A stretch of DNA of 64,000 nucleotides from Dietzia sp. JS16-p6b (GTDB lineage: Bacteria; Actinomycetota; Actinomycetes; Mycobacteriales; Mycobacteriaceae): assembly GCF_003052165.1 (NCBI RefSeq), contig NZ_CP024869.1, positions 3,630,001-3,694,000 of the forward strand. The letters are read 5' to 3'. Shown here piece by piece: positions 4,575 to 52,034 of the stretch. The translations under genes and the position numbers were made by a program. Every line of letters starts with the position of its first letter. Positions within the stretch are counted from its first letter, which is position 1. The notes under the pieces were generated by a model, which saw only the letters and a program-made list of their open reading frames with translations, did not search any database and was not told where the DNA came from.

Positions 4575-5842
4575 CGGATCGTCACCTCGGTACCCCGCAC
4601 GAGCGGACCGAGCATGGTCCACGCCGCGGCATCGGGCGCGACCGCGGGATCGGCGGGCGGGGGCACCGGCGACCCGGGCTCGGACGCGGCGGCCGCCTGG
4701 AGTTCCCGGATGAGGTCCCGCTCCGAGGCGGCGGAGACCGTGAGGCCGGTCCTGCGGTGGGGGGACGCCACACCCGAACACGTCGACCCGGCCAGGTCGG
4801 GATAGCGGGGGCAGTCCTCGGGCCCGTACGGCATGGGGTCGGAGAACGACGGGACCGCCGTGATGGCGAACCGCCCCGTGGAGAACGCCGCCTCCCCGGC
4901 CTCCCCCATGGGTCGCATGGCGTAGAGGGTCCGGATGACCCCGTGCGGGTTCCGGGCGGTCCGGTCGAACACCACCCCGGTGTCGTCGACCAGTCGGATC
5001 GCACCCGTCACGGTCCGGTCGGCCATGTGCGCGCCCGAACCGGTGACCGCCAGGCCCGCGTCGAGCAGCCGCCCGAGCGAATCGGGGCGGCCCACCACGA
5101 TCTGCGAGAGTCGCGTCGCCTCCTGCAGGGTCTCGACGATGGCCGGGCCGGCCGCGGCCAGGTCCTCGGTGAGGTAGGCGAGCGCGGAGGACGCCTCGGC
5201 GGTCTCCTCCAGCGCGGGCGACAGGTGCTCACCCGCCCGGTCCACGTCCCCGATGACCCTGCCCAGCATCTCGCCCCGACCGTCGAGGGCCCGATCGAGT
5301 GCGGTGAGCGTGACCTGAAGACGCTCGGGTTCGATGGAGACCAGCAGGTCGCTCGCGCGGGTGAACACGTCGTAGAGGAGCACGGCCTCCTCGGAGCGGT
5401 CGGCGGCCAGGACGTCTCCGCTGTCGAGCCCGCCGGCGGCGCGCGTCGTCCCCGGCACGCCCGGGGTCACCAGGTCCAGGCGCATGTCGCCGAACAGCGT
5501 CCGCGGGACCGCACGGACGACGACGTCGGAGGGGATGCGCTCCGCATGCTCCGGGGCGATCAGCATCTCTATCCTGGTGCCCGGTTCGTCGTCGTCACCC
5601 GAACTGTCACCCAGAGACGACCGCACGTCACCCACCTTCACCCCCAGGTGATGGACGGGGGCGTGGACCGGGACCCGGCCCGCCTCCGAGGGCAGCACCG
5701 CCGTCACCGTCGCCCCCGCGTCGAGGACGCCCGCGCCCCGGGCGACGAGGAACCCCGCCAGCGCCGCGGCCACGACACTCGCGACCAGCCCGCGGACCGC
5801 CAGGGTCCGCTCGGGCGTCGGTCCCGCCACGCGCCGCCTCAC
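4571..5842 (-). CDS. mceA: MCE family protein, MceA position
   Basis: This 423-residue protein is the first MCE subunit after the permease genes. An N-terminal hydrophobic stretch (about residues 12-33) precedes an MCE domain and a long helical region. Two cysteines lie near the C-terminus (in PEDCP and STCSG) and could form a disulfide outside the membrane. The GTG at 5842 gives a GTGA overlap with yrbEB, so I prefer it to the longer frame that starts inside yrbEB. MceA proteins are the founding members of the mycobacterial entry/lipid-import family. Confidence 0.9.
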   Translation of the reverse strand: MRRRVAGPTPERTLAVRGLVASVVAAALAGFLVARGAGVLDAGATVTAVLPSEAGRVPVHAPVHHLGVKVGDVRSSLGDSSGDDDEPGTRIEMLIAPEHAERIPSDVVVRAVPRTLFGDMRLDLVTPGVPGTTRAAGGLDSGDVLAADRSEEAVLLYDVFTRASDLLVSIEPERLQVTLTALDRALDGRGEMLGRVIGDVDRAGEHLSPALEETAEASSALAYLTEDLAAAGPAIVETLQEATRLSQIVVGRPDSLGRLLDAGLAVTGSGAHMADRTVTGAIRLVDDTGVVFDRTARNPHGVIRTLYAMRPMGEAGEAAFSTGRFAITAVPSFSDPMPYGPEDCPRYPDLAGSTCSGVASPHRRTGLTVSAASERDLIRELQAAAASEPGSPVPPPADPAVAPDAAAWTMLGPLVRGTEVTIR

Positions 5843-6720
5843 GTGATCCCCAACGCCGGGACCTCGGGCACCAGGCCCCACAGGGCGAAGGTGAGCACGA
5901 TGTCGATGAACCCGATGAGGAGGATGCTGGTCCGCAGCGCACGGCCTGCGGCCCGCCCGACACCCTCGGGCCCGCCCGTCGCGTGGTACCCGTAGCTGCA
6001 GTGCACGAGCACGATCACCAGGGCGAACACCACGGCCTTGATCAGCGAGTAGAGGACGTCCTCGGGCCCCAGGGTGATGTGGAAGAAGTAGTCGTAGGTG
6101 CCCGCCGAACCGCCGTTGACGTGGACCACCACCACCCGCGTGGCGATGTACGTCGCCACCAGCCCGACGGCGTACAGCGGCACGATGCAGATCATCGTGG
6201 CGATGACCCGCGTCCCGGCCAGGTAGGGGACGGTCGGCACGGACATCGCGTCGAGGGCGTCGATCTCGTCGGAGATCCGCATCGACCCCAGCCGGGCGGT
6301 GAAACCGGTGCCCACCTTGGCGGCCAGGGCGATGGAGGCCACGACGGGCGCGAGTTCGCGCGTGTTGGCCATCGCCGAGAGCATCCCGGACAGACTGGTC
6401 ATGCCGATCAGATCCAGACCGCGGTAGGTCTCGACGCCCACCATGATCGCCGCGACCGCGGACATCGCCAGGACGATCCCGATGGTGCCGCCGCCCGCGA
6501 TCAGCGATTTGGAGCCGAAGCCCACGTCGACGACCTCGTTGACGACCTGTTTGCGGTACCGCACCAGCGCGGTGGGCAGCGTGAGGATCACCCGGCCCGC
6601 GAAGCTCACGTGGCGGCCGACCTCCGCCATCGCCGACGCGGCCCGGGCCAGGACCGCGGCGGGCCGGGACGCCCGGAACTTCTGCACGGCGCTGGTGTCC
6701 GTCACCCGGAGCGAGGTCAC
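5839..6720 (-). CDS. yrbEB: MlaE/YrbE-type permease, second subunit (YrbEB)
   Basis: This 293-residue integral membrane protein belongs to the MlaE permease family. It has several hydrophobic helices and the family signature around GFTARLGSMRISDEIDAL (about residues 139-156), a segment thought to contact the ABC ATPase (MceG). Together with YrbEA it forms the inner-membrane channel of the mce importer. The start is GTG, one base after the yrbEA stop codon. No mceG ATPase gene is present in the window. In mycobacteria that gene is normally located elsewhere. Confidence 0.93.
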   Translation of the reverse strand: MTSLRVTDTSAVQKFRASRPAAVLARAASAMAEVGRHVSFAGRVILTLPTALVRYRKQVVNEVVDVGFGSKSLIAGGGTIGIVLAMSAVAAIMVGVETYRGLDLIGMTSLSGMLSAMANTRELAPVVASIALAAKVGTGFTARLGSMRISDEIDALDAMSVPTVPYLAGTRVIATMICIVPLYAVGLVATYIATRVVVVHVNGGSAGTYDYFFHITLGPEDVLYSLIKAVVFALVIVLVHCSYGYHATGGPEGVGRAAGRALRTSILLIGFIDIVLTFALWGLVPEVPALGIT

Positions 6721-37869: not shown

Positions 37870-38763
37870 TCAGGCCCTGGCGACGGAGGACTCCGCGAAC
37901 CGCCACAACCGCTCGGCGATCTCCGGGTCCGAGGCCTCGGCACTCCGGCCGATGAGCGTGGGCATCCCTCTGAGGTTCCGAAGACCGTCCGGCCCGGTGT
38001 AGCTGCACGACGGGAGCGGCCGGGTCGCCGCGGCCATCGTGGTGAGCGCCGCCTGGTCGGCGGGTTGGGCGAACACCGAGCAGAACCCGGTGATGATCCT
38101 GTCCACCGCGGCGTTACCACTGGCATTGGAGATGCCGGTCGCCGCCCAGCCGGGGTGCGTGAGCTGCACGTCCACACCCGTCGCCGCCGCCTCCGAGCGA
38201 CCGTCCCGCAGCCGCCGGTCCAATGCGAGCCCCCACAACATATCCCCGAGCTTGGACTGGGCGTAGGCCGCCGCGGCGGACCACCGACGCCGCTCGAAGT
38301 GCGGGTCGTCGAAATCGAAGGTCCCGGCCTTGTGGGCGTTGGACCCGACGATCACCACGCGACGCCGCACACCCGGGAGGACGAGGTTCGTGAAGAGGAA
38401 CGGCCCGAGCACGTTGACGCCGAGTAGCATCTCGAATCCGTCTGTGGTCTCGCGACGACGGGTCGTGATGGCACCGGCGTTGTTGACCAGCACGTCGACC
38501 GGTTCGGCCTCCGCCCCGTTCAACTCGTCCGCGGCGCGCCCCACGCTCTCCAGCGAGGCCAGGTCCAATTCGACGACCCGCGAGGGTCCCGGCAGCGCGG
38601 CCGCGATGTCGCGTCCCCGCACGGTGTCCCGGACCGCGAGGATCACCCGCGCGCCGCGATCCGACGCGGCACGGGCGGTCTCCAGGCCGACTCCGCTGGT
38701 CGCCCCCGTGATGAGCCACGTCTGGCCGGTGAGGTCGGGGACGTCGATTCCTGTGTGCGCCAC
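37870..38763 (-). CDS. Short-chain dehydrogenase/reductase (retinol dehydrogenase-like)
   Basis: The 297-residue SDR has TGATSGVGLETAR near residues 18-30, DVLVNNAGA, the catalytic serine in IVGSNAHKAG and the YAQSK motif. The layout, with HPGWAATG after the active site, resembles retinol dehydrogenase/WWOX-type SDRs common in actinobacteria. The GTG at 38763 lies 7 nt after a TAACCT hexamer on the minus strand. The longer frame back to 38931 is not supported. Confidence 0.87.
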   Translation of the reverse strand: MAHTGIDVPDLTGQTWLITGATSGVGLETARAASDRGARVILAVRDTVRGRDIAAALPGPSRVVELDLASLESVGRAADELNGAEAEPVDVLVNNAGAITTRRRETTDGFEMLLGVNVLGPFLFTNLVLPGVRRRVVIVGSNAHKAGTFDFDDPHFERRRWSAAAAYAQSKLGDMLWGLALDRRLRDGRSEAAATGVDVQLTHPGWAATGISNASGNAAVDRIITGFCSVFAQPADQAALTTMAAATRPLPSCSYTGPDGLRNLRGMPTLIGRSAEASDPEIAERLWRFAESSVARA

Positions 38764-38883
38764 GGAGCCCAGGTTACTGACCGCGGGCCGGCGGTCGAGA
38801 CTACGGTAATTCGCGACAGCGTCCGGGTGGACAGGAGCGGGAGTCGGGCAGACGCCGTTGACACCCGACGAGAGGAGACAGCT

Positions 38884-40002
38884 GTGCCGGTCGAGATGGG
38901 AATCTGGCGGATGGACGGCGACAGGCCTCACCGACTGTCGCCCACCACGATGCCGACCGAGGTGATGCTGGAGGAGTTCCTCGAGCGGGACCCGTCATTG
39001 CTCGGTGATCGGCTCCTGGTCATCGGCAGGCAGGTACGCACGCCGTACCAGAAGCTCATCGACCTGCTCGCCGTCGACGCCGAGGGCAACCTCCACGTGC
39101 TGGAACTCAAACGGGACAGGACGCCGCGGGATGTGGTGGCGCAGGTACTCGACTACGGCTCATGGGTCACGACCTTGGATCACGAGAGCATCATCGATCT
39201 CGCGAACGGCCACCTCGACCGTCCATTCGAAACCGCCTTTGAGGAGGTCTTCGGCACCCCGCCTCCTGATGAGCTCAACGGCGCGCTCACTCTGGTGGTG
39301 GTCGCCACCGACCTGGACCCCAGCTCCGAGAGGATCGTCACGTATCTCCGCGAGTTCGGCGTTCCCGTCAACGTCGTGTTCTTCACCTTTCTGGAGGACG
39401 ACGGCCGACGCTACCTCGCCCGATCCTGGCTTGCCGCGAGCGAGGAGGGTGCGACAGGCGTCGGCACGTCCCCCCGCAACTACCAGGGCAAACGGGCCGA
39501 GTGGAACGGGACCGATTGGTTCGTCTCGTTCGGCGAGGAGGGCACACGGTCCTGGGACGACGGTCGCCGCTTCGGCTTCATCTCCGCGGGAGGTGGGACC
39601 TGGTACTCGGGCTCATTGCACAACCTCCCGGTTGGTGCGCGGGTCAACGTCCATATCCCCAAGAGCGGGTACGTCGCGATAGGCGAGGTCCTTCGCCCCG
39701 CCACCCGCTTCGACCAGGCCTCGGTCCTCGTGGACGGCAAGTGGGTTCACCTCGCCGATCAGGAGCTCAGCGCTCCGTACAGGCACGGCCCACCGGGGGT
39801 CGCGGACAGCGACGACGACGCCGAGTACGCCGTGCCGGTCCGCTGGTGGGTGAGCGTCCCACGATCCGAGGCGTTCTGGGTCAAGGGGATGTTCGCCAAC
39901 CAGAACAGCGCGTGCAAGCTCCGGCAGGAGTTCACTCTGCCCGGCTGGCCGAGCATTTCGGATTGGACCGGAAGACGCAAACCCACTGAAAGTGGCGGTT
40001 AG
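38884..40002 (+). CDS. PD-(D/E)XK nuclease-like protein fused to a PUA/EVE-like C-terminal domain
   Basis: The 372-residue protein has two parts. The N-terminal half (about 1-170) has a PD-(D/E)XK pattern: LIDLLAVDAEGNLHVLELKRDRTPR supplies the Asp and the ExK, followed by VVAQVLDYGSWV, as in NucS-like/DUF91 nucleases. The C-terminal part (about 200-370) has FGFISAGGGTWYSGSL and IPKSGYVAIGEV, resembling PUA/EVE-like folds that can read modified bases. The GTG start has AGAGGAG 7 nt upstream. The combination suggests a solitary DNA-targeting enzyme, perhaps for defence or repair. The second domain is my inference. Confidence 0.7.
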   Translation: MPVEMGIWRMDGDRPHRLSPTTMPTEVMLEEFLERDPSLLGDRLLVIGRQVRTPYQKLIDLLAVDAEGNLHVLELKRDRTPRDVVAQVLDYGSWVTTLDHESIIDLANGHLDRPFETAFEEVFGTPPPDELNGALTLVVVATDLDPSSERIVTYLREFGVPVNVVFFTFLEDDGRRYLARSWLAASEEGATGVGTSPRNYQGKRAEWNGTDWFVSFGEEGTRSWDDGRRFGFISAGGGTWYSGSLHNLPVGARVNVHIPKSGYVAIGEVLRPATRFDQASVLVDGKWVHLADQELSAPYRHGPPGVADSDDDAEYAVPVRWWVSVPRSEAFWVKGMFANQNSACKLRQEFTLPGWPSISDWTGRRKPTESGG

Positions 40003-40011
40003 TCTCCGCTC

Positions 40012-41229
40012 ATGCGCCCCTCAGCCTCCCGCCCCCGCCGTTCGCTGACCGCGGCGGTCGCCGCCCTCGTCATCGTCACCTCCCTCACCGCTCCCACCGC
40101 CGGCGCCGCGCCGGCGGCCTCCGGCCAAACGGCACCGCGGTGGTCGGGCCTGGACACCCGCCACTGGGACCGAACGATCCCCGCGCCCGGCGCCACCGCG
40201 GTGACGGTGCCGTTGGAAGACTCGCTCGCGCTGCCGGAGGCCGGGCGGGCGGTGCGCTCGGCGTATGGCACGATCGACCAGCACGGGAGCCCCGCGATCG
40301 CCACGTCGGCGGTGTTCCTGCCGCACGGGACTCCCCCGCCGGGCGGATGGCCCGTGGTGGCCTGGGCACACGGGACCACCGGTCTCGGTGACGACTGCGC
40401 ACCCTCGACGCACCCGCGCTCCGAGCGCGACGCCGAGTACCTCGGGCACTGGCTGCGGCAGGGGTACGCCGTCGTGGCGGCCGACTACGTGGGACTCGGG
40501 ACTCCGGGCCTGCTCAGCTACCTCAACGGACAGGTCGCGGCCCGCGGGATCATCGACGCGGTGATAGCCGCACGGGCAGACGGCCTCCCGCTCTCCCCGA
40601 CCTGGGCGGCGGTGGGGCAGTCGCAGGGCGCAGGCGCCGCCCTGGTCACCGCCACCCGGGCCACCGAACTGGGCGCACCGTCGGGGCTGGACTTCCGGGG
40701 CGTCGTGGCCACGGGTGCGCCGGCCAACCTCGAGCACCTCTTCCAGTGGGGTGGGCCCGGTTTCCCTCCCGTGTCACTGCCCACGGGCCTGAACCTCTAC
40801 GCCCTCTACATCCTCGCCGGACTTCGTGACCAGCACCCCGAGGTGGGACTCGATGCCTTCCTCACCCCTCGCGGCCGCGAGATGGTCGATGCCGCAGAAC
40901 ACCTCTGCTACGAGGACATGCGGGACGCGGTGGGAGACTTCCAGGTATCGCAGGCCCTGACCAGGCCGGTCAGGGACATCCCGGACGTCTTCGGGCTCCT
41001 GCAGCGGTACATGGGGACTCCGGCCACCGGATACGATCGCCCGGTCTTCCTGGGCCAGGGTCTGCTCGACCTGGACGTGCCCGCGCCCTCGGCGCTGTCG
41101 CTCGCGGCGGAAATGACACTGAACCGTCAACCGCTCGAACTCCACGTCTATCCGGACAGGGACCACAGCGGGACGGTCTACGCGGCGATACCGGATGCCA
41201 CCGCGTTCCTGAGTCGTGTGATGCGCTGA
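40012..41229 (+). CDS. Secreted lipase/alpha-beta hydrolase (LIP-like)
   Basis: The 405-residue protein has a Sec-type signal peptide (basic N-terminus, hydrophobic core about 12-30, cleavage near AGAAP). It then has an alpha/beta hydrolase with VVAWAHGTTGLGDDCAPS, AADYVGLGTPG and the nucleophile elbow GQSQGAG (Ser). A C-terminal DRDHSGTV may supply the catalytic histidine. This pattern fits the secretory lipase family of actinobacteria. The start is 9 bp after the preceding gene and 6 nt after a TAGTCT hexamer. Confidence 0.88.
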   Translation: MRPSASRPRRSLTAAVAALVIVTSLTAPTAGAAPAASGQTAPRWSGLDTRHWDRTIPAPGATAVTVPLEDSLALPEAGRAVRSAYGTIDQHGSPAIATSAVFLPHGTPPPGGWPVVAWAHGTTGLGDDCAPSTHPRSERDAEYLGHWLRQGYAVVAADYVGLGTPGLLSYLNGQVAARGIIDAVIAARADGLPLSPTWAAVGQSQGAGAALVTATRATELGAPSGLDFRGVVATGAPANLEHLFQWGGPGFPPVSLPTGLNLYALYILAGLRDQHPEVGLDAFLTPRGREMVDAAEHLCYEDMRDAVGDFQVSQALTRPVRDIPDVFGLLQRYMGTPATGYDRPVFLGQGLLDLDVPAPSALSLAAEMTLNRQPLELHVYPDRDHSGTVYAAIPDATAFLSRVMR

Positions 41230-48314: not shown

Positions 48315-51300
48315 TCAGGGCACGATGTTGACCATCCTGCCCGGCACCACGATGACCTTCTTCGGGGTCGCCCCGTCGAGGTTCGCCTGCACCTTCTCGT
48401 CGGCCAGGGCCGCGGCCTCGACCTCGGCCGCTGAGGCGTCCGCGGGCACGGTGATGCGCGAGCGCACCTTGCCCTTGATCTGCACCGGGTATTCCACCGA
48501 GTCCTCGACCAGATAGGACTCGTCGTGCTCGGGGAACGGTCCGTGGGCCAGCGACCCGGTGTGTCCCAGCCGGGACCACAGTTCCTCGGCGAGGTGTGGG
48601 GCGACGGGCGCCACCATGAGCACCAGCGGTTCGACGACCGACCGCGGTGCCCCCGGCCCCTCCGTCGGGTAGCTCTTGGTCAGGAGGTTGACGTACTCGA
48701 TGAGCTTGGCGATCGCGGTGTTGTCCCGTAGACCGGCGTAGTCGTCCCGGACCCCGGCGATGGCCTTGTGCAGCGCCTTGAGCACGTCCTGCGACGGCTC
48801 GTCCTCGGTCACGCGGGCCCGCCCGGTGGACTCGTCGATCACCACGCGCCACAGTCGCTGCAGGAAGCGGTGCGCCCCCACGACGTCCTTCGTGGCCCAG
48901 GGCCGGGAGGTGTCGAGCGGTCCCATGGACATCTCGTACACGCGCAGGGTGTCGGCGCCGTACTCGTCACAGATCTCGTCGGGGGAGACGGAGTTCTTGA
49001 GCGACTTGCCCATCTTCCCGTACTCCTGGAAGACCTCGGGGGCATCCGGAGAGTCATCCAGGTAGAACTTCCCGTCCCGCTCCACTACATCTGCAGCGGG
49101 TACGTAGACGCCGCGCGAGTCGGTGTAGGCGAACGCCTGGATGTACCCCTGGTTGAACAGCCTGCGGTACGGTTCCTCGCTGGTCACGTGCCCCAGGTCG
49201 AACAGCACCTTGTGCCAGAAGCGCGAGTACAGCAGGTGCAGCACCGCGTGCTCGACTCCACCGACGTAGAGGTCCACTCCCCCGGGATCACCCTCGCCGT
49301 GGATCTCGGGCCGCGGTCCGGTCCAGTAGCGCTCGTTCTCCAGCGCGCAGAGCTCGTCGGAGTTGGTGGGATCGATGTAGCGCAGTTGGTACCAGCTGGA
49401 GCCGGCCCAGTTGGGCATGACGTTGGCGTCGCGGGTGTAGGTCTGCACGCCGTCGCCGAGGTCGAGCTCGACGGTCATCCACTCGGTGGCCTTGGCCAGC
49501 GGCGGGGACGGCATCGAGTCCGCGTCGTCGGGGTCGAACGAGACGGGCTTGTAGTCCTCGACCTCGGGCAGCTCGACGGGGAGCATCTCGTCCGGCAGCG
49601 GGTGCGGGACACCCTCGGCGTCGTAGACCACGGGGAACGGCTCGCCCCAGTAGCGCTGGCGGGCGAACAGCCAGTCGCGCAGCTTGTACTGGACGGTGCC
49701 CTCACCGGTGCCCTCGCCCTCGAGCCAGGCGATGGTCGCGGCCTTGGCCTCGTCGACGCCGAGTCCGTCGAGAGAGAGCCCGAGCTCGTTGGTGGAGTTC
49801 ACGGCCACGCCGTCACCCGCGTACGCCTCGGTCGCCACGTCGAGCTCGCTCCCGTCGGCCGGGGCGACCACCTGGACGATCGGCAGACCGAAGGCCGTGG
49901 CGAACTCGTGGTCGCGGGAGTCGTGGGCGGGCACCGCCATGATCGCCCCGGTCCCGTAGCCCATGAGCACGTAGTCCGCCACGAACACCGGGACCTGCTG
50001 CCCGTTGACCGGGTTGACGGCGTAGGCGCCGGTGAAGACGCCGGTCTTGTCCTTGTTCTCCTGGCGCTCCAGATCGGACTTGGTCGCGGCCCGGCGGCGG
50101 TACTCCTGCACGGCCTCGGCCGGCGAGGAGTGCCCACCGGTCCACCGCTCGTCGATTCCACCCGGGCCCGCGTCGCCGGCCGCGCCGACAGCACCCTGGG
50201 TGTCCGGCCAGAACGGCCCGGCCAGCTCGTCGACCAGTGGGTGCTCGGGCGAGAGCACCATGTAGGTGGCACCGAAGAGGGTGTCGGGGCGGGTGGTGAA
50301 GACCTCGATGGACCTGTCGGCCACCGCGAATCGCACGCGGGCGCCCTGCGAGCGGCCGATCCAGTTGCGCTGCATGGACTTGACCTTGTCGGTCCAGTCC
50401 AGACGGTCCAGGTCGTCGACCAGCCGATCGGCGTAGGCGGTGATCCGCATCATCCACTGGGACAGGTTCTTGCGGAACACCGGGAAGTTGCCACGCTCGG
50501 AGCGGCCCTCGGCGGTGACCTCCTCGTTGGCCAGCACGGTTCCCAGCCCGGGACACCAGTTGACCTGGGAGTCGGACAGGTACACCAACCGGTGCGCGTC
50601 GAGCACCTTCTCCTGCTCGGCGGCGGTGAGGTCGGTCCAGGCGCGGCCGGCGAACCCCTCGGGCAGCGGCCGCGCACCGGAGACGAACTGCTCGCGCAGC
50701 TCGGCGATCGGCCGGGCGCGGCCGGTGCGGGTGGGATGCGCGCCACCATCTGTGGTGCGGGCGGGGGCCTCCGGGTCATACCAGGCGCCGTGGATCTGCA
50801 GGAAGATCCACTGCGTCCAGCGGTAGAACTCGGTGTCGGTGGTGGCCACCACGCGCCTGCGGTCGTGGCCCAGACCAAGCCGCCCGAGCTGGCGCTCCAT
50901 GTTGACGATGTTGGCCTCGGTGGTCACCCGCGGGTGCTGGCCGGTCTGCACGGCGTACTGCTCGGCGGGGAGACCGAACGCGTCGTACCCCAGGGTGTGC
51001 AGGACGTTCGTCCCGAGCATGCGGTGATAGCGGGCGAAGACGTCGGTGGCGATGTACCCCAGCGGGTGGCCCACGTGCAGGCCGGCGCCGGACGGGTACG
51101 GGAACATGTCCTGCACGAAGAGCTTGTCCTCGGGCGGCGCCGACCCGTCGGCGGGCGCGAGAGGGCCGACTGGGTTGGGGGCCTCGAACGTCCCGCGCTC
51201 GGACCACTCGCGCTGCCACCGCGACTCGATGCGACCGGCGAGATCGGCGCCGTAGCGGTGGGCGGGCCCCGCCTGCTCGGCCTGCGACCCGGTGGCGGGC

Positions 51301-51335
51301 TGATCTGCGGTGACGGTCTCGTCGCTACTGCTCAC
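48315..51335 (-). CDS. leuS: Leucyl-tRNA synthetase
   Basis: The roughly 1000-residue class I synthetase charges tRNA-Leu. It has the HIGH-type motif in [20 protein letters not shown], a large editing domain and the KMSKS-type loop [16 protein letters not shown], where KMGKS is normal for actinobacteria. The anticodon-binding and C-terminal domains end in [33 protein letters not shown] prefer GTG 51335 because GGGAGAG lies 10 nt upstream. An in-frame GTG at 51371 is possible. A -10-like TAGGCT lies on the minus strand at 51392-51387. An inserted low-complexity segment near residue 205 ([14 protein letters not shown]) is longer than usual. Confidence 0.97.
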
Positions 51336-51455
51336 GGTTGTCTGCTCTCCCTGATCCTCGCCGGTGCCCACGCGCAGGCCGTGTCCAGCCTAAACCCTGG
51401 AGCGGGCCGGGCCTCCTCGGCGTGTGGGCACCGCTGTGTGCGGGGCCGGGACCGA

Positions 51456-51959
51456 TCAGGCCGTCGCCGTCCGGCGCCCGGCGGTACGGCGAGCGACGAT
51501 CAGCGCGTCGAGGCTGTATCGCCCGGGGCCGGCCAGGCCGAAGACCGTGGCGGCCAGCGCGATCACGGCGACGAGTTCCCACCCGCCGTTCGTGGCGAAG
51601 ATGCCAGCGCCCTGGTGGACGAAAAGGTAGGCGCCGAACATGACGACGACGACGAGCGCCGCCACCACCTGGGTGAGCAGGCCCGCCACCAGCAGGATTC
51701 CTCCGGCCAGCTCGACCACGCCGGCGAACACAGCGGCGGCCTGGGCGGCCGGGACGCCGACGGAGTCGAAGAACTCGCCGGTGGCACCCGCGCCGTTGGT
51801 GACGAGCTTCTCCCAACCGTGGGCGATCAGCACGACGCCGAGCAGGACCCGGGTCAGCAGGAGGCCGATGTCGCGGACGGGTCCGGGTACGGCGACGAGG
51901 GTGGCGGCCGCGCCGGTACGGGGGGCGGGCGTCGGGGCGACGGATTTCGAGGCGCTCAC
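51456..51959 (-). CDS. DoxX family membrane protein
   Basis: The 167-residue protein has four hydrophobic helices and the DoxX pattern IGLLLTRVLLGVVLIAHGWEKL, VELAGGILLVAGLLTQV and VVVMFGAYLFVHQGAG. Mycobacterial DoxX is part of a membrane oxidoreductase complex that handles thiol and oxidative stress. The GTG start has GAAAGGA upstream. Divergent orientation to a MarR gene suggests control by that regulator. Confidence 0.88.
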   Translation of the reverse strand: MSASKSVAPTPAPRTGAAATLVAVPGPVRDIGLLLTRVLLGVVLIAHGWEKLVTNGAGATGEFFDSVGVPAAQAAAVFAGVVELAGGILLVAGLLTQVVAALVVVVMFGAYLFVHQGAGIFATNGGWELVAVIALAATVFGLAGPGRYSLDALIVARRTAGRRTATA

Positions 51960-51979
51960 GGGGTCAGTCCTTTCGGGTC

Positions 51980-52034
51980 ACGCATCCTGATGATGCGTCA
52001 CACACTTCTATCGCCGCACTAGGTGTCGTGTCAA
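51980..52034 (-). promoter_or_regulatory. doxX promoter with a candidate MarR operator
   Basis: On the minus strand TTGACA (52034-52029), a 17-bp spacer and ATAGAA (52011-52006) make a good promoter. Downstream, ACGCATC and GATGCGT (51980-51986 and 51992-51998) form a 7-bp inverted repeat with a 5-nt spacer, suited to a dimeric regulator. The divergent marR -10 TAGACT is at 52044-52049, so the two promoters overlap. Confidence 0.55.

Follow-up and report, generated by a model that had tools for sequence, protein, structure and literature searches.

A NucS-like nuclease with a putative PUA/EVE-like reader domain in Dietzia, a probable orphan of a type I restriction cassette

What is a nuclease gene with a possible reader of modified bases in its second half doing on its own between a dehydrogenase gene and a lipase gene in the chromosome of Dietzia sp. 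JS16-p6b? The question arises from the window, by which we mean the whole stretch of 64,000 nucleotides that was analysed (NZ_CP024869.1, positions 3,630,001 to 3,694,000). An earlier note, made from the letters alone, had described the product as a lone nuclease and had left its role as that of a single-gene defence or repair enzyme. We suggest that the protein is probably an endonuclease that depends on DNA modification, and that its gene is an orphan of a type I restriction cassette like those that still enclose half of the relatives compared.

The open reading frame, as read from the sequence, has a GTG start at 38884 and a stop codon that ends at 40002, and it is the single copy of its family in a genome of 3.72 Mb on one contig (Table 1). 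The place of the frame and the motifs that had been quoted for it were all recovered, namely D60, ELK at residues 74-76, GFISAGGGTWYSGSL at 231-245 and GYVAIGEV at 262-269; judged by the invariance found across 21/21 aligned sequences, down to about 31% identity, these motifs are beyond chance. A Pfam scan of the ten frames neighbouring the gene revealed no recognised defence family, and the nuclease gene gave no match to a sigma-70-type promoter. The lipase/esterase-like gene, which is present in 21 of the 23 genomes of the genus, begins 10 bases past the nuclease stop codon. In the host genome a single type I methylase is encoded, 78 kb away from the nuclease, and no C5-cytosine methylase scores above threshold. 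Elsewhere in the window, 48315-52022 holds long overlapping frames on both strands (1018 aa on the minus, 1084 aa on the plus), the plus frame being without a Pfam match at 1e-5.

Table 1. Features at the nuclease locus (positions in the window)
Feature	Position	Strand	Basis
Gene for PDC-S11 family protein, 372 aa	38884..40002	+	ORF; PADLOC PDLC04916 match over residues 1-352
Ribosome-binding-site-like, purine-rich GAGAGGAG	38870..38877	+	6 bases upstream of GTG; inferred from sequence
PD-(D/E)XK nuclease domain, residues 25-178	38956..39417	+	model match to 2vld_A/5gke_A; 2vld profile match
Predicted active site: D60 (39061-39063), E74 (39103-39105), K76 (39109-39111), Q87 (39142-39144)	39061..39144	+	21/21 invariance
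PUA/EVE/YTH-like domain, residues 209-350	39508..39933	+	predicted structure
Residues 353-372, read in a frame other than that of the homologues	39940..39999	+	alignment, blastn, frame comparison
Short-chain dehydrogenase gene bordering the variable interval on the left (approximate start codon)	37870..38763	-	Pfam adh_short
Predicted secreted lipase/esterase-like gene, right flank	40012..41229	+	Pfam only Peptidase_S9, 1e-6

By its match to the PADLOC profile PDC-S11 (PDLC04916; E 2.1e-142, 472 bits, residues 1-352 against profile positions 1-347 of 358), the protein is a member of a catalogued family of phage-defence candidates. We aligned it with 20 homologues that span Actinomycetes, haloarchaea, Deinococcus, Priestia, Klebsiella and Providencia, the most distant at about 31% identity. 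In the N-terminal half, D60, E74, L75, K76, Q87 and Y91 are invariant in 21/21 sequences; the C-terminal half adds W207, G209, R222, W224, D226, F232, G236, G262, V264, G267 and W321. The distribution of full-length relatives is patchy: they occur in 4/23 genomes of the genus and 6/298 of the order, while in the class 19/394 genomes hold a relative, one of the 19 being a partial match. A plasmid collection yielded 334 records with a relative, 212 of them from Klebsiella, and IMG/VR yielded 8 loci; the window protein had no match in the phage collection, and a third scan for distant relatives found none in viral contigs. Among the matches listed, the Klebsiella plasmid relatives show about 30% identity. 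We found no functional study of the PDC-S11 family in the openly licensed PubMed Central literature. In papers that mention such candidates, PDC-S11 is reported from 10 P. aeruginosa strains of one panel, with 90% in the phage-resistant group (PMC10855318), it co-occurs with other candidates in S. suis (PMC12813430), and PDCs are said to remain unvalidated (PMC12988326).

Comparison of homologue neighbourhoods had been proposed in the earlier note as a check, and we carried it out on 14 loci (L003-L005, L059-L061 and L088-L095). Pfam and PADLOC identified hsdM, hsdS and hsdR there and, at the Dietzia-type loci, also a type IV enzyme, Mrr. In seven of them (two from Microbacterium, G045, G057 and three from the genus of the window) the gene forms part of a type I restriction operon that reads hsdM-hsdS-nuclease-(...)-hsdR in one direction. 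The order is hsdM-hsdS-nuclease-Mrr-HTH-PIN-hsdR at L059 and L060, where the HTH-PIN pair looks like a toxin-antitoxin module; a Schlafen/AlbA-type gene takes the place of HTH-PIN at L061. At L095, hsdR and hsdS lie directly downstream of the nuclease gene, and at L003 a DUF4011/AAA/REase protein lies directly upstream of it. No clear restriction neighbour was seen at the remaining five of the 14 loci, L090-L094, where one or two adjacent proteins each were Pfam-scanned, which indicates that the nuclease gene can stand alone. The embedding of relatives in restriction operons is well supported. The earlier observation that no methylase or partner is adjacent thus holds for the window, and it fails for the nearest relatives, which sit inside type I operons; "lone" is true of the window copy and misleading for its relatives, for embedding in known defence systems is a property of the latter (7/14 loci) and not of the former.

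Eight plasmid loci, drawn from 20 listed of the 334 records and including one without annotation, were also inspected. Defence-type neighbours (restriction, BREX, SNF2 or PD-(D/E)XK/helicase genes) lie within two genes at 5/7 annotated loci (L022, L024, L025, L027 and L029). A NACHT protein is encoded two genes off at L023, and L026 has no defence-type neighbour within two genes.

Three further observations concern the cargo around these genes. Between hsdS and hsdR, L059:4339-13552 and L060:3324-11907 hold three kinds of it, the nuclease, Mrr and the HTH-PIN pair. In two genera, genes for AAA/REase_MTES_1575 proteins closely precede that of the nuclease (L061:156-1763 and L003:4076-7948). A DUF4011 protein is also found near a haloarchaeal copy of the nuclease (L029).

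How the window copy came to be solitary can be approached through its flanks. Sixteen regions were fetched across the genus, and in the ten that have both the dehydrogenase and the lipase flanks, five of the gaps between them measure less than 0.6 kb, three of about 5-6.5 kb carry ABC transporter genes, and two are occupied by a restriction cassette. The cassettes of L059 and L060 (G002 and G022) are bordered by the dehydrogenase and lipase genes that also border the window copy; at L061 the fetched stretch showed the lipase flank alone. In the sister genome G003 the same two flanks stand about 180 bases apart, and the DNA before the lipase gene, colinear at 92% with that of the window from position 39942 onwards, retains about 45 bases of the nuclease tail; this remnant reads LGEHFGLDRKTETH in the frame where homologues read LAEHFG. 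Since the remnant lies directly before the lipase gene, the ancestor of G003 and of the window genome (G000) most likely carried the nuclease gene there. In the protein tree the window copy groups with the three embedded copies of the genus (support 100/99), and a ten-row clade (100/99) includes all seven embedded copies together with it; L061 appears as its exact sister with a support of only 86/64. Because the window copy is nested among embedded copies, its solitary state is most simply explained as derived, and so it looks. As a side observation, the interval between dehydrogenase and lipase (38764-40011 in the window) varies across the genus loci L059-L074, from a short gap to ABC-transporter cargo to a restriction cassette. 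A dedicated defence hotspot at this place was considered and rejected, given that ABC-transporter cargo and short gaps occur there as well, and we speak of a variable site. The 120 bases upstream of the window gene, considered as possible remains of hsdS, gave no similarity.

The end of the gene raises the question of its present condition. The last 20 residues cannot be aligned with the other 20 sequences, and within 39901-39960 the window falls one base short of L060 (60 against 61 letters in blastn), a difference near the gene end by which these residues are changed; a tail of the LAEHF type, as in several relatives, is present in another frame of the window DNA. Either a natural change or a sequencing error could account for the one-base difference. 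For residues 1-352, the NG86 estimates of dN/dS are 0.108/1.028 with L061, 0.190/1.147 with L059 and 0.186/0.914 with L060, with dN well under dS in both protein halves, which on these codon comparisons shows purifying selection on that part of the protein, although pairwise ratios average both lineages and a recent loss of constraint would escape them. Together with the altered tail and the lack of a sigma-70-type promoter match, the longer branch of the window copy (0.15, against 0.066 for L061) suggests that it may be decaying. It would be a further step to regard the gene as a leftover that has ceased to act. The operon partners are missing from the window, the tail is out of frame, the branch is long and the sister genome G003 retains the tail only; against this, 352 codons are open, the catalytic residues are kept and dN lies well under dS in both halves, averaged as these ratios are over two lineages. 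We consider a non-functional relic unlikely.

The recurrent position between hsdS and hsdR also admits the reading that the protein is an accessory subunit, which would regulate or extend HsdR, HsdM and HsdS and would not be free-standing. Gene ends that overlap or touch would fit such a partnership: at L060 a short hsdS (172 aa, 4778-5296) overlaps the nuclease gene (5296-6411). Solo copies in the window and at L090-L093, neighbours elsewhere that include BREX and SNF2-type genes, and a nuclease core of the protein's own all argue against it, and we rate it a little below the relic.

If the gene is an orphaned endonuclease, as we prefer, both halves of its product should make sense in that role. 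The earlier note had proposed a structure prediction and fold search of each half, and these returned a PD-(D/E)XK core in the first and a PUA-like fold, with moderate scores, in the second. Residues 25-178 of the full-length model, which is middling to weak (pLDDT 67.7, pTM 0.45, built on 12 sequences), match the catalytic domain of NucS/EndoMS in 2vld_A (Z 12.7, rmsd 2.2, 108 aligned) and 5gke_A (Z 12.6), followed by AF1548 (Z 9.1) and Shedu (Z 8.4). A sequence profile independently matches NucS 2vld (E 2e-5), and Pfam NucS_C, which in the window protein scores 21 bits against a cut-off of 24, is matched at E<=1 by 21/21 members of the family. For Shedu SduA, the PADLOC profile matches the window protein over 25 residues (E 0.019), and Pfam SduA_C matches 5/21 members (best E 0.0021). 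The NucS-like PD-(D/E)XK half first recognised from its motifs is thereby borne out by the 21/21 conservation of D60, E74, K76 and Q87, by the model and by the profile. The fold predicted for the cutter is well supported, and a catalytic role for these four residues would follow from the PD-(D/E)XK pattern. A NucS/EndoMS-type nuclease for the repair of mismatches or DNA damage, whose C-terminal domain would sense damaged bases, is very improbable, although the nearest solved relatives are NucS/EndoMS and the relatives are labelled "endonuclease NucS domain-containing" in databases, because the match begins at 2vld residue 126 and the NucS N-terminal domain is absent, the NCBIfam NucS equivalog scores 32.7 bits against a cut-off of 216, the genome has a separate true NucS (NucS_C 149 bits, above cut-off), and patchy distribution and restriction-operon context are unlike those of a housekeeping repair gene.

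In the full-length model, residues 209-350 match 2hd9, YTHDF2, VcaM4I and 2eve at Z 6.7-7.6, with 2hd9 (PH1033), an EVE protein, at the upper end (Z 7.6, rmsd 3.1, 99 aligned) and VcaM4I 6yex_B at Z 6.8. Modelled alone, the domain reaches pLDDT 77.4 and pTM 0.77; its top Foldseek match is VcaM4I 6yex_B (E 3.9e-3, prob 1.00), and the 50 rows of the structural search are mostly YTH, plus VcaM4I, THYN1/DUF55 and structural-genomics entries, with 1wmm best at Z 7.5. No match of this half reaches Z >=8 or Foldseek E <0.001, and Z values of 6.7-7.6 are possibly compatible with a common arrangement, so the argument lies in the consistency of the match list. By sequence the link is weak: Pfam EVE (PF01878) has no match in the window protein, nor over the genome, and matches 1/21 family members (E 0.014); hhalign against eight EVE proteins gave a probability of 4% (P 0.011, 37 columns); and a PDB sequence search with the C-terminal profile returned no EVE or YTH match. 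EVE membership is thus a matter of predicted structure and is not significant by sequence. A reader fold of the PUA/EVE/YTH type is likely on the models, much as the earlier note had surmised from the motifs.

We also looked, indirectly, for traces of a target. A cutter of C5-methylated DNA should be carried by genomes without C5-methylases (PF00145). Such methylases were found in 3/13 carriers and 16/27 non-carriers of a first sample (two-sided p 0.046; the non-carrier G026 has a distant homologue, E 4.7e-11) and in 8/17 carriers and 39/63 non-carriers of a second (p 0.28; 2 of the 39 below the Pfam cut-off), or p 0.033 when pooled, uncorrected for kinship. One carrier, G057, has a C5-methylase about 5 kb from its nuclease gene. 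The second sample alone does not replicate the weak link, and we do not rely on it to name C5-methylation as the target. The type I methylase domain HsdM_N was present in 11/13 carriers and 14/27 non-carriers (p 0.08), and its frequency in carriers argues against a general sensitivity to type I m6A marks.

In the mechanism that we posit, incoming DNA would be recognised by the PUA/EVE-like domain, which would bind a modified base and flip it; cleavage by the NucS-like domain would follow, with D60, E74 and K76 holding the divalent metal. Between hsdS and hsdR, its home position, the enzyme would cover invaders whose modified DNA evades the type I enzyme. At its variable site in the chromosome, the window copy would be either the residue of an operon since lost or a gene that moved by itself. 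That the enzyme cuts, that it depends on modification, that it defends against phages and that it divides the labour with the type I enzyme are what we infer; the alternative between defence and repair, left open in the earlier note, leans towards defence, which genomic context and the PDC-S11 listing support, and away from repair, the separate NucS in the genome disfavouring it. Weighing against the orphaned endonuclease are the weak EVE sequence homology, structural Z values below 8, the weak full-length model and the solo loci, as well as the frequent presence of C5-cytosine methylases in carriers (3/13 and 8/17).

A broader proposal can be entertained, if tentatively. The type I system and the embedded EVE-like/NucS-like enzyme, joined in the genus by Mrr, would form a two-faced cassette, one inherited unit that strikes both unmodified and modified DNA; the embedded enzyme could leave this unit and, as in the window, go on working by itself. 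Were this so, modification-dependent defence in bacteria, haloarchaea and plasmids would have drawn its NucS-type nuclease domains from mismatch repair. PDC-S11 is a widespread candidate, and the prediction of a NucS-like cutter with an EVE-like reader, set between hsdS and hsdR, makes it directly testable and would give the list of modification-dependent enzymes a further type of nuclease.

It remains to place the protein among known systems. With PDC-S11, listed by PADLOC as a candidate through guilt-by-embedding, it shares the single gene, the full-length profile match and the embedding in defence systems among relatives; it differs in that no recognised defence system encloses the window copy, whose tail is altered. 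With NucS/EndoMS (2vld, 5gke) it shares the predicted fold of the catalytic domain and the D-ELK-Q pattern, but it lacks the N-terminal domain of NucS, has its nuclease at the N-terminus and carries a PUA-like domain instead. Shedu SduA (8ps5, 8ti9) is a defence protein with a related PD-(D/E)XK nuclease fold (Z 8.4), at a Z clearly lower than that of NucS and with another partner domain. Section 9 of a study of EVE proteins predicts that EVE-PD(D/E)XK proteins act as type IV enzymes (PMC7641849), the same combination of domain types and the same putative modification-dependent restriction, although NucS/DUF91 goes unmentioned in that text and the EVE assignment here follows the predicted structure and not the sequence. 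A single-protein type IV enzyme recently described has another type of nuclease (PMC12923530). VcaM4I, whose EVE domain flips 5mC/5hmC (PMC7897488), has an HNH nuclease in place of PD-(D/E)XK and its reader at the N-terminus, yet it too fuses a PUA/EVE-like reader to a nuclease, and it is the top Foldseek match of the lone C-terminal domain.
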